Assembly (NCBI RefSeq): GCF_024436435.1
Contig: NZ_JAFMZP010000006.1
Span: 186,001 to 250,000 of the forward strand
DNA: 64,000 nt
Source: Desertivirga xinjiangensis
Lineage (GTDB): Bacteria; Bacteroidota; Bacteroidia; Sphingobacteriales; Sphingobacteriaceae
Direction: 5' to 3'
The notes under the pieces: model-generated
Databases searched by the model: none
The model's input: the letters and a program-made list of their open reading frames with translations, nothing else
Told to the model about the DNA's origin: nothing
Position numbers and translations under genes: made by a program
Shown: positions 27,465 through 31,101 of the stretch, in pieces
How positions within the stretch are numbered: the first letter of the stretch is position 1
Layout of the letters: each line of letters begins with the position of its first letter

Positions 27465-27918
27465 TATTATCAGCTTAACCCTTCCCGGATCTTATCTATT
27501 TTCACTTCTTATACGCGATCAAAAAGCATTCAACTGACAGGAAAAATCCTCAGAATTGGAAGGTTGTTAGAACTTATATCCTAGTCCTTAAAGCTTTTTA
27601 CTGGTCAACAGCGGGGATAAAATCAGGAAACGCCCAAGAATATATCGGCCCCACAATCTTTTCAGCTTAGCCCAATTAATCGTCTAGAAAGAAGCAATTG
27701 GCAATCAAATTTTTATTTGATCCCATATATCGATACATTTGGTAAATATGCAGCCTAGACTGTAACAATTTAAGTGCTTTAAATCGATACATTTTCGAAT
27801 AATTTTTATAATACGATTCTCTTAATCAAATATTTAATCGAATCAACCTGAATTTAAACTACAATAGAGGATACATCCAAAACCAGCAAATTACTAACAA
27901 AGTTAGCAATCAAGTAAA
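27465..27918. other. 454-base gene-free region with repeated ATCGATACATTT
   Basis: No credible coding frame is present. The sequence is A/T rich, notably near 27700-27900. ATCGATACATTT occurs twice, at 27729-27740 and 27783-27794. The first copy overlaps TACATTTG (27734-27741), a perfect TAnnTTTG box for the 946-residue gene, about 177 bases before its ATG. A long untranslated leader or a binding site for a regulator would explain the spacing. Confidence 0.5.
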
Positions 27919-30759
27919 ATGACTTTTAAATCGACATATAAAAACCTAAAAATCAAACAATTAACCATTATCATATCAATTATTCTATCAAACGAAGCAA
28001 TCGCCCAAATTTTTTCTGCAAATCAGAACCCTCCTACTCTCAACTGGCGTCAAATAAACACAAAAAACTTTCAAATAGTTTACCCGTCAGAGTTTGAACC
28101 GGAAGCAAAAAGAATGGCAAATGTTTTAGATAAACTAATTTTAAGAGTTAGCTATTCTCTAAATAAAGACCCCAAAAAAATAAGTATATTCCTACAAAAT
28201 CAGGGCACGAGTTCTAACGGTTTTGTTCAATTGGCACCAAGGCGCTCCGAGTTTTTCACGACACCTTCTCAGAGCTTTGATTATCAAAATTGGCTGAACA
28301 GTCTGGCCGTACATGAGCTACGTCATGTAGTGCAATTTGACAAACTTACAGGTAAATATAACAGTCCTCCTTTTGAGTCAATTGCGCTCGCTGTTTTTGG
28401 AATTATACTTCCTCCATGGTTCTATGAAGGGGATGCCGTAACTATCGAAACGGCACTAAGTGGCGCGGGAAGAGGACGACTTCCGGAGTGGAGTTTAGCT
28501 ATCCGGACAAACACCTTAAGCGAGAAAAAATTCAGCTATTCAAAAGACTTCTTCGGTTCTTTAAAAGACTTCACCCCCGGTTATTATCAACTGGGATTCT
28601 TTATGAACAGTAAGCTCAGAAGAGATTATGGAAGAGGAATTATGGATAGTATATTTACCCGTATTTCTCAGTTCCCTATCCGCCCTTATAACCTGAGTAA
28701 CTCAATAAAAAAATTCACTGGGTTAAACACACGGCTGCTGCATGACTCGACAGTAAGCGACTTAGAAAGCCTTTGGAAGCAACAGTTAAGTAAGGTACAA
28801 TATCAGACATATGTTTCCCTGAATGGAAGAAAAAATAAAACACCCGAAAGCTACCTTTTGCCGGTATCAATTCCAGGGGACAAAGTATTGTTCCTTCTCG
28901 ACAGCAAAGCAAATCCTCCGGCGATTTGCCTGTTGGATAAAAGTGACAAAGTCAGCAACCTTATCCGGATTGGATACCAGGAAGTACCTTGGTTCAATTA
29001 TGCTGCGGGAAAAGTTGTCTGGGATGAATTCCGGTATGATAAGCGGTATCAGCAGAGATCTTTTAACGTCATAAACATCTACGATCTTAGCACATCCAAA
29101 GCAAGGCAGCTTACGCATAAAAGCAGACTCTTCGCTCCGGTATTATCGCCCGACGGAAAAATAATAGCGGCGATCAAGGTAGCGCTCAATAACCAGGTCC
29201 AGCTGGTTGAAATAGATGCAGAAACGGGAGACGAAATCCGACAGTATACCAGTCCAGGAAACAATATGCTTCAGATGCCTTCATTCGATGCCAGCGGAAA
29301 AAAGATCGTTGTAGTAAGCGTGGCAAGCACCGGAAAAACATTACTTGAACTTAACCGCAGCAGCGGAGAATTCACCCAGGTACTTCCTATCCAGCTCCAG
29401 GAGATACTAAAGCCTGTATACGCAGAAGATCAGATTGTCTTTAAAGCTCACTTCAACGGAATCGATAACCTTTACCGGTTTAATCCCGCAGACAAAGAGA
29501 TCTATCAGATCACTTCAGCCAGGTTCGGAATTCATCATCCTTCATATGATGAGGGACAACAGCGGTTACTTTTTAACGATTATCAGGTTCAGGGTTATGA
29601 TATTGCCTCAGTCAAATGGCAGCCGGACGGTGGGGAAAAAATCTCTAAAATCCCGACCACTTATGTTAATTATGCAGCTCCGCTTAGTTCTCAGGAGGGT
29701 GGATCAAATGTTTTTGACTCTATTCCAAGTTTAGATTTTAAGTCCAAACCATACAGGGAACTTTCTAACCTCTTTTATTTTCACAGTTTTTATCCTGTAA
29801 CGGACGACAATGCCAGGGGCTTACAGATCCAGTCAGATAACAAACTCAATACCCTTAATTTCTATACAGGCTACCAGTTCAATACCTCGCTTAGAAAAAG
29901 CGAGTATATTGCAGGATTTTCGTACAGACGCTTCTACCCTATTCTTAATGTGGATTATATCAACCGGGCAAGGCTGATAAACAGAAGAGCTGTGGTTAAT
30001 GGGCAGACAGTGCTAACGCCTGTAACATGGCGGGAAAACGAAATCAAAACTGAGACGAACGTTCCTTTCACCTTCAACCGCTTTAACTATACCTATTCAA
30101 CCGGAATTAAAGCAGGCACGAGTTATACCAACAGGTATGCCGTAAGTCAGCCCTTTCCGGCGCTTGTAGAAAAGATCAGCTTCCCTATGCACTACCAGAT
30201 ATACGCTGGCAGAAGCAGCAGAAGAAGCGCAAGGGACCTGGCGCCTAAATGGGGGCAAAGTTTCAACCTTACCTACCGGCACTTTCCGTTCGACAACGTT
30301 TTAGTGGGAGATCTGCTAGTGTTCAAAAGCTCGTTCTTTTTCCCGGGAATTCACAAGAATCACTCCTTTCAGGCAGCATTCAACTGGCAGCATGGAGCCG
30401 GCGATTATCAAAACACTATTGATATTCCAAGGGTAAGTGGATACACTTACATGAGCGCTATTGGTAATCCTTACAATACTTTGTTTTTAAATTACAGGTT
30501 GCCTCTGTTTTACCCTGACTGGGAACTTGGTCCGCTTGCATACATCAAGCGTATTAAAGCGGGCCTGTTTGCTGATTTTGAAAACGTCGGTCATGGCAAT
30601 TCATTTTCTCCCCGCTCATACGGAGTGGAGTTAAGAGGAGACATGAACCTGCTGCGATTCTACCTGCCAAATTTTGACCTGGGGGGCAAACTGGTTTTCA
30701 TTAATGAGAAGGCCAATCACAAACCTGTATTCGAATTAATCAGCACTTACAGTTTTTAA
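27919..30759 (+). CDS. Fusion of zinc-metalloprotease-like, propeller and outer-membrane barrel domains
   Basis: A 946-residue exported protein. A basic N terminus and hydrophobic stretch (LTIIISIILSNEAIA) act as signal peptide. Next is a gluzincin-like domain with HELRH at residues 132-136 and a possible third ligand, Glu170, in PPWFYEGDA. Residues of about 300-600 form TolB/WD40-like propeller blades (for example SPDGKIIAA, LFAPVLSPDG). The last 300 residues alternate polar and aromatic residues like an outer-membrane beta-barrel (GYQFNTSLRKSEYIAGFSYR) and end in Phe (STYSF). I infer a surface or periplasm-facing protease anchored by its own barrel. Relatives in Bacteroidota are usually annotated hypothetical or TolB-like. 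The start region is more A/T rich than the rest. Confidence 0.75.
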   Translation: MTFKSTYKNLKIKQLTIIISIILSNEAIAQIFSANQNPPTLNWRQINTKNFQIVYPSEFEPEAKRMANVLDKLILRVSYSLNKDPKKISIFLQNQGTSSNGFVQLAPRRSEFFTTPSQSFDYQNWLNSLAVHELRHVVQFDKLTGKYNSPPFESIALAVFGIILPPWFYEGDAVTIETALSGAGRGRLPEWSLAIRTNTLSEKKFSYSKDFFGSLKDFTPGYYQLGFFMNSKLRRDYGRGIMDSIFTRISQFPIRPYNLSNSIKKFTGLNTRLLHDSTVSDLESLWKQQLSKVQYQTYVSLNGRKNKTPESYLLPVSIPGDKVLFLLDSKANPPAICLLDKSDKVSNLIRIGYQEVPWFNYAAGKVVWDEFRYDKRYQQRSFNVINIYDLSTSKARQLTHKSRLFAPVLSPDGKIIAAIKVALNNQVQLVEIDAETGDEIRQYTSPGNNMLQMPSFDASGKKIVVVSVASTGKTLLELNRSSGEFTQVLPIQLQEILKPVYAEDQIVFKAHFNGIDNLYRFNPADKEIYQITSARFGIHHPSYDEGQQRLLFNDYQVQGYDIASVKWQPDGGEKISKIPTTYVNYAAPLSSQEGGSNVFDSIPSLDFKSKPYRELSNLFYFHSFYPVTDDNARGLQIQSDNKLNTLNFYTGYQFNTSLRKSEYIAGFSYRRFYPILNVDYINRARLINRRAVVNGQTVLTPVTWRENEIKTETNVPFTFNRFNYTYSTGIKAGTSYTNRYAVSQPFPALVEKISFPMHYQIYAGRSSRRSARDLAPKWGQSFNLTYRHFPFDNVLVGDLLVFKSSFFFPGIHKNHSFQAAFNWQHGAGDYQNTIDIPRVSGYTYMSAIGNPYNTLFLNYRLPLFYPDWELGPLAYIKRIKAGLFADFENVGHGNSFSPRSYGVELRGDMNLLRFYLPNFDLGGKLVFINEKANHKPVFELISTYSF

Positions 30760-30807: not shown

Positions 30808-31101
30808 ATGAACGCAAAAACAATTTTTATTATAGCAACAACAGCATTGCTGACTCTTATCCTGGCGCAGAATGCTGATGAAATGGACTTTTGGCTATTT
30901 GGCACTTACAAGTTTTCTAAGCTGGTTGTTCTTGCCTCTGTTTTCGGGGTTGGCTTTGTGTTGGGGATGGTCGCGCGTTCGCCGGGTAGAAAACAATCCA
31001 GACAGGCTGGACCAGCAAATGCCTATTCTGAAGAGGAAATGGAAGAATTACCTGATAACCGGTCAAAGTTAAGCGACGAAGACAGGGATTATATTAATTA
31101 G
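30808..31101 (+). CDS. LapA-domain (DUF1049) small membrane protein
   Basis: A 97-residue inner-membrane protein with two helices (IFIIATTALLTLILAQNAD and KLVVLASVFGVGFVLGMVA) and an acidic C-terminal tail with EEEMEELPDN. The helix pair with a short FWLFGTYKFS loop is the LapA/YciS pattern. In E. coli LapA takes part in LPS assembly and turnover with LapB; no lapB is seen here. It starts 48 bases after the 946-residue gene and may be cotranscribed with it. It converges with ispE across only two bases. Confidence 0.83.
   Translation: MNAKTIFIIATTALLTLILAQNADEMDFWLFGTYKFSKLVVLASVFGVGFVLGMVARSPGRKQSRQAGPANAYSEEEMEELPDNRSKLSDEDRDYIN

Follow-up and report, generated by a model that had tools for sequence, protein, structure and literature searches.

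One chain with a predicted metalloprotease, a TolB-like propeller and an Omp85-type barrel, probably a protease of the Bacteroidota outer membrane

The window analysed here, a stretch of 64,000 nucleotides from Desertivirga xinjiangensis (genome size 5.5 Mb), contains at positions 27919..30759 a complete gene for a protein of 946 residues plus stop; like every feature given below, it lies on the forward (+) strand. ORF, start and stop had been proposed in a sequence-only reading of the window and were borne out, and the chain closes in Phe946 in the translation, the C-terminal Phe noted there. Residues 1-29 (27919..28005) were recognized by eye as a signal peptide, with likely signal peptidase I cleavage between AIA and Q, before Gln30; this residue is invariant in 29 of the 29 rows of our alignment A1, which agrees with the Q-rule reported for signal peptidase I substrates of Bacteroidetes (PMC5837995, sections available). 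The AlphaFold2 model of the full chain, built on an alignment of 65 sequences, shows three domains in order (mean pLDDT 91.3, pTM 0.88), and an architecture of metalloprotease, TolB-like propeller and POTRA-less 16-stranded Omp85-type barrel in one chain is well supported by model and sequence comparison. No Pfam family reaches its own cut-off on the protein, whose matches in Pfam, NCBIfam and PDB-sequence searches are weak or under cut-off, the best being TolB-like propellers; the A1 rows likewise give weak Pfam matches alone (PD40 in 4 of 29, DUF3909 in 1). Starting 48 bp downstream, positions 30808..31101 encode a 97-aa protein weakly similar to LapA_dom (Pfam, 18.6 bits, cut-off 28), and this gene is possibly co-transcribed with the protease gene. 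A pair of ATCGATACATTT near 27730 and 27785 was considered as a conserved upstream regulator site and rejected by conservation and shuffle tests, with 3 matches at one mismatch upstream of 80 relatives and a count in the window that was equalled by 5 of 100 shuffles.

Homologues were compared in several samples. A1 comprises 29 rows, 27 of them from the same family; it omits L028 (a fragment), L002 (a propeller paralogue) and the matched genomes without a retrieved locus, namely G004, G028, G036, G015, G023 and G025, of which G015 and G036 entered later through the phylum-scale search. From the genome collection, 80 loci were taken among the matches listed, and after omission of the partial L097, L100 and L104 the remaining 77 were reduced to 64 by an 85% identity filter (A2). 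Set PH holds 24 rows, set FR 16 places hand-picked from the phylum-scale match list, and set A3 15 distant relatives.

The N-terminal domain spans residues about 34-292 (28018..28794), as delimited by the model, conservation and profile matches to Peptidase_MA_2-type relatives. Its presumed zinc-site motif is HELRH at residues 132-136 (28312..28326), and the presumed third zinc ligand is Glu170 (28426..28428), which lies 34 residues past His136 within the WFYEGD part of PPWFYEGD (residues 165-172); both had been read from the letters, are present in the translation and are backed by sequence, model and conservation. In the AlphaFold2 model HELRH is found not on a strand but on helix 125-147, with Glu170 on the neighbouring helix 166-180, an HExxH plus a downstream Glu on the following helix as in gluzincin metallopeptidases. 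Across 143 homologue rows (duplicates removed), of which 74 came from the collection search with patterns that included the HExxH/Glu motifs and the other 69 (A1 29, PH 24, FR 16) from whole-protein or whole-profile searches, no row departs from His132, Glu133 and His136 where it has a letter (142 of 142) or from Glu170 (143 of 143); the single gap at HExxH belongs to L123, whose ORF was begun at a later Met. The residues expected to be conserved are thus invariant wherever aligned, and the combination of HExxH and Glu170 is more than a chance occurrence, since it is kept throughout the homologue rows. Of the three domains the protease also varies least: pairs of A1 rows are on average 52% identical in it, against 38% in the propeller and 42% in the barrel, and 27 of the 46 invariant positions of A1 fall in residues 100-235.

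Profile comparisons connected this domain with a HELVH group of 7 proteins (99.8%, E 2e-27), a HEFTH-type group of 6 (98.9%, E 1e-17) and a set of 18 made up of 15 same-family paralogues and 3 HEFTH-type proteins (97%, E 1e-10), in which the paralogue ORFs had been picked by requiring HE.[TV]H, so that their HExxH is no independent evidence; control comparisons of the protease profile with four barrel profiles gave 0.1-0.8%. The alignments place HELRH over HELVH or HEFTH and Glu170 over the Glu of an EG motif. Among the 15 distant relatives of A3, 6 match Peptidase_MA_2 at E 0.01 or better and 6 match the NCBIfam flagellinolysin HExxH model. A paralogue in the own genome scores above the Peptidase_MA_2 cut-off (33.7-37.5 bits vs 32.4) and is the sole place of PF13485 there; the window protein itself is not matched by PF13485 in the Pfam search. 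In relative L236 a single chain carries PD40 (88 bits), Omp85 (PF01103, 24.5 bits, passing the cut-off of 24) and, under its cut-off, Peptidase_MA_2 (25.5 bits); in ten further relatives, nine from other families, neither Peptidase_MA_2 nor Omp85 was matched at E 0.1. We consider the N-terminal domain to be a probable metalloprotease related to Peptidase_MA_2 (PF13485), with a gluzincin-type motif and hence a putative zinc enzyme, and the gluzincin-like part of the sequence-only reading is upheld by the model and by these profile matches. It resembles Peptidase_MA_2 in the order HExxH then W..EG.A and in profile homology via relatives, and differs from it in being fused to a propeller and a barrel.

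Sequence and profile searches together with a fold search identify residues about 300-572 (28816..29634) as a TolB-like beta-propeller, whose strands occupy 310-566 in the AlphaFold2 model, in the middle of the chain where propeller blades had been suspected. VIA aligned it with the TolB crystal structure 3iax (Z 22.7, 237 residues, 2.9 A) and, level with it in the list, a TolB integrative model (Z 22.9), and 12 of the 15 PDB sequence-profile matches are TolB. The TIGR02800 TolB model gives the window protein 28.1 bits, far under its cut-off of 343.15, and finds nothing over that cut-off in the own genome. Among the folded domains the propeller is the most variable, with 5 of its 273 positions invariant.

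Since propellers filled the list of the full-model fold search, the barrel was folded separately (residues 575-946), which gave 16 strands at a pLDDT of 90.2. Full model, barrel-only model and fold searches place the 16-stranded Omp85-type barrel at residues 621-945 (29779..30753); the barrel read earlier at about 640-946 therefore stands, with its start shifted to nearer 620, at residue 621. Foldseek returned 73 matches for the barrel alone at E 0.001 or better, the best 50 of which all come from Omp85-superfamily entries, and so do 50 of the 50 matches listed by VIA; these entries comprise BamA/BAM, TamA, FhaC, CdiB, SAM and TOC, with SAM and TOC counted by entry and not by chain. The best VIA match is BamA of D. 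radiodurans (Z 18.7, rmsd 4.0, 301 aligned), and BamA of F. johnsoniae reaches Z 18.0. The membrane barrel is described as the defining feature of the Omp85/TpsB superfamily (PMC4104836, sections available), and the model predicts a barrel of this type, whose usual task is the assembly or export of proteins. The model shows no POTRA domain: the 54 residues from the end of the propeller strands to the start of the barrel strands (567-620) include two short helices. POTRA domains are usual in the Omp85/TpsB superfamily, not defining. The window protein has no match to PF01103 (Omp85), and direct comparison of the barrel profile with Omp85 barrels gave 8.1%, no better than the TonB-receptor control at 8.7%, while the paralogue barrels gave no match (5.9%). 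The barrel profile is connected with the barrels of the HELVH group (97.6%) and the HEFTH-type group (94.4%), and from these intermediates the comparison with Omp85 barrels gave 26.6% and 98.4%, respectively. As the direct comparison does not exceed its control, the Omp85 assignment rests on the fold, the intermediates and the position of a motif in loop 6.

According to the sections available of PMC7644211, in all Omp85 structures the Arg of (V/I)RG(F/Y) at the tip of loop 6 pairs with the Asp of (F/G)xDxG on strand 13, and disruption of the loop-6 motif is reported to compromise the folding activity of BamA (PMC12505904, likewise in part). Model and profile alignment locate the equivalent of loop 6 between strands 11 and 12 at residues 829-852 (30403..30474), the longest loop of the barrel, where VSGY (839-842) replaces the motif and Ser840 stands for the Arg; strand 13 carries FAD with Asp886 (30574..30576), which model and alignment place at the position of the partner Asp. 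In the profile alignments VSGY lines up with MKGY of the L145 group, which in turn lines up with LRGY of Omp85. Compared with BamA, TamA, FhaC and CdiB, the window protein thus shares the barrel fold, the strand number, the position of loop 6 and the FxD on strand 13, and differs in the missing POTRA, the Ser in place of the loop-6 Arg and the lack of a PF01103 match. Neither the Omp85 kind of the barrel nor the missing arginine had figured in the sequence-only reading.

Among the 27 A1 rows of the same family, one has the arginine and 26, with the window protein among them, lack it; the three own-family rows of PH (24 rows) have Arg, Lys and Tyr at this position, so that the 30 own-family rows combined (27 from A1, 3 from PH) hold Arg in two and Lys in one. 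In these alignments the own family has mostly lost or changed the loop-6 lock, if not in every member. The other-family rows of PH have the Arg in 17 of 21 cases, and among 74 named rows it occurs in 7, none of which bears a Sphingobacteriaceae title. The Arg-Asp pair (840/886) is found in 28 of 127 non-distant rows, 26 of these 28 being outside the own family or without its title, and 41 rows, apparently mainly from Pedobacter, have Tyr-His instead. All 36 rows with Arg or Lys at 840 have an acidic residue (Asp or Glu) at 886, a link that is weaker than it appears: of the 98 non-distant rows that have neither Arg nor Lys at 840, 48 still carry Asp886, and the rows share kinship and are not independent events. 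The pattern supports an Omp85 ancestry of the barrel, and the family would offer a natural test for the role of the loop-6 arginine.

Matches to the protein were found in 36 of the 60 genomes searched: in 34 of the 37 that belong to the own family, with the window's own genome counted, and in 2 of 23 elsewhere in the class. At the scale of the phylum, 263 of 296 genomes match somehow, many via the propeller only; 30 genomes reach at least 467 bits, 29 of them nearly full length and G091 after its frame was rescored. In the genome collection at least 547 of 593 candidate stretches encode relatives, and the highest-ranked named loci among the matches listed are those of Pedobacter sp. SYSU D00535 (58% identity) and Daejeonella oryzae (57%). 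The gene is patchy across the phylum and is broken in one same-family genome (G023). A plasmid-borne gene was ruled out, as no relative was found in 72,556 plasmid records.

Fusions of a propeller with an Omp85 barrel are known. The WD40-Omp85 subfamily, described in 2014 by Heinz and Lithgow and likened to a BamA-BamB fusion (PMC4104836, sections available), resembles the window protein in carrying a TolB-like propeller N-terminal to a POTRA-less Omp85 barrel and differs, as far as its description goes, in that no metalloprotease before the propeller is mentioned there; the word 'peptidase' is absent from the main text of that paper, and the 'Omp85-metalloproteases' in its available sections are a separate 'Metallo' subfamily tied to PF00149, which did not match the window protein in the Pfam search. 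The sequence-only reading took the combination to be uncharacterised, which holds for the three-part chain with a peptidase and not for the propeller plus Omp85 barrel; the apparently new element is the metalloprotease joined ahead of both. No description of the three-part chain was found in the literature titles and abstract openings listed, which cover subscription journals only in small part. Two papers of 2025 on the BAM of Bacteroidota (PMC12611786, PMC12578637) mention neither 'peptidase' nor 'TolB' in the parts available, and BamI, the six-bladed propeller protein reported in PMC12578637, is other than the propeller protein discussed here. With a metalloprotease linked covalently to its Omp85-type barrel, this Bacteroidota family, in which Pfam misses both of these domains, would be an example of Omp85 barrels put to new use as anchors for enzymes and would add a candidate player to outer-membrane biogenesis in the phylum.

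From model, sequence and analogy we propose, with moderate confidence, that the protein is an outer-membrane-anchored zinc metalloprotease that faces the periplasm, with the barrel as its anchor, and that its most likely task is to help mature exported or outer-membrane proteins or to control their quality. Many Bacteroidota probably carry it as a protease integral to their outer membrane. Export by Sec, cleavage by signal peptidase I and insertion by BAM would leave both chain ends in the periplasm. The barrel, lacking the loop-6 Arg, may then serve mainly to anchor the enzyme and to position it on the periplasmic side of the outer membrane; the propeller may hold substrates or partners, and the putative zinc site would cleave the substrates so held, much like a built-in BepA. 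The even number of strands (16), the N-terminal signal peptide and the mostly short loops, the longest being the counterpart of loop 6, speak for a working side in the periplasm, so that of the earlier wording 'surface or periplasmic' the latter is preferred; 'self-anchored protease' fits, protease and barrel being within one chain.

BepA, an E. coli M48 metalloprotease acting at BAM, provides a precedent and is, with the lipoproteins YcaL and LoiP, among the E. coli metalloproteases tied to outer-membrane protein quality control (PMC13067283, sections available). The likeness to BepA is hypothetical and functional, that of a metalloprotease acting at the outer membrane, between unrelated proteins, and the window protein differs in having no M48 or TPR match in Pfam. 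BepA is not known to have a barrel of its own, and none of BepA, YcaL and LoiP is known to belong to one. A simple replacement of BepA was ruled out by three M48 places in the own genome, none of which is the window protein. A bolder version, to which we attach little probability, would be a self-contained proteolytic machine of the outer membrane, in which an Omp85 barrel without POTRA and mostly without the loop-6 lock lets stalled outer-membrane proteins be caught at its seam or by the propeller and handed to the fused metalloprotease.

A missing POTRA and a lost loop-6 Arg make both a normal Omp85 transporter and a type Vd autotransporter less likely here. We regard it as unlikely that the protein is an assembly or translocation factor of the outer membrane, akin to a BamA-BamB fusion, whose protease edits or regulates the clients of an active Omp85 barrel; the Omp85 fold, the propeller adjoining the barrel, as in the 2014 hypothesis for WD40-Omp85 (PMC4104836, sections available), and the 28 of 127 non-distant rows that keep the Arg together with Asp886 would suit such a role, but the model has no POTRA domain and the Arg is gone from nearly all same-family A1 rows (26 of 27), part of a motif whose disruption impairs the folding activity of BamA in the text available of PMC12505904. 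It appears rather improbable that the barrel exports its own N-terminal passenger in type Vd fashion for display outside. The type Vd autotransporters PlpD and FplA likewise have an enzyme N-terminal to a 16-stranded Omp85-like barrel in a single chain, but they are lipases with one POTRA (PMC6555100, sections available), whereas in the window protein a metalloprotease is followed by a propeller, the model has no POTRA separating the would-be passenger from the barrel, and Pfam gives no patatin match at E 1; moreover, both the enzyme and a closed propeller would need passage, and the loop-6 Arg is mostly lost. It is very doubtful that the propeller is the chief functional part, replacing TolB in a Tol-Pal or peptidoglycan linkage, that the barrel anchors it and that the protease plays an accessory role: TolB heads the fold list and makes up 12 of the 15 PDB profile matches, and no TIGR02800 match exceeds the cut-off in the own genome, yet it is the active site that is invariant and the propeller that is least conserved (5 of 273). 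That the metalloprotease fold is kept for binding only is most improbable, as an invariant HExxH and Glu170 in divergent relatives are unexpected for a dead enzyme.

For the preferred periplasm-facing protease, none of the gene neighbours in the 80 loci points to a substrate. A small ORF follows directly downstream in 51 of the 80 loci, or in 50 if the 77 loci that leave 600 bp for it are counted, and L070 has it in a slightly overlapping frame; relatives of the neighbours recur across the 80 loci as tgt in 48, lptG in 49, EamA in 47 and the small downstream ORF in 50. This neighbourhood is shared by loci titled Pedobacter, Daejeonella, Olivibacter, Nubsella and a few others; L035 alone among the Sphingobacterium-titled loci shares part of it, and the distant loci have none of tgt, lptG, EamA and the small ORF. 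As the neighbourhood is confined to some lineages, the gene stands alone, with a small partner possible in one lineage.

The positions of the Omp85 loop-6 arginine and its strand-13 aspartate partner correspond to residues 840 and 886 of the metalloprotease–propeller–barrel protein (codons at 30436-30438 and 30574-30576 of the window), where Ser and Asp are found, respectively. Tyr and His jointly occupy these two positions in 41 of the aligned homologues. Separately, a homologue broken into three pieces and carrying internal stops was observed in one genome of the same family (G023:C5:130357-131605).

A paralogue carrying Peptidase_MA_2 and PD40 repeats is encoded on the minus strand elsewhere in the window's own genome (G000:C21, about 282.3-285.0 kb; L165:1766-4480). 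Its reading frame is broken by an in-frame stop directly after the LIRG of a loop-6-like motif, past which similarity to a paralogue goes on in the same frame, and we regard it as either a pseudogene or the product of a sequencing error. Three long frames of G000, that of the window protein among them, encode TolB-like propellers, yet no match to TolB over the TIGR02800 cut-off was detected in the whole genome.

The gap 5' of the gene contains two copies of ATCGATACATTT with a spacing of 54 bp (window 27728-27794), for which no conservation was found in the regions upstream of the gene's relatives (80 loci). The 3' side is adjoined by a gene for a 97-aa, weakly LapA_dom-like protein (window 30808-31101), which is kept in many Pedobacter-like loci.
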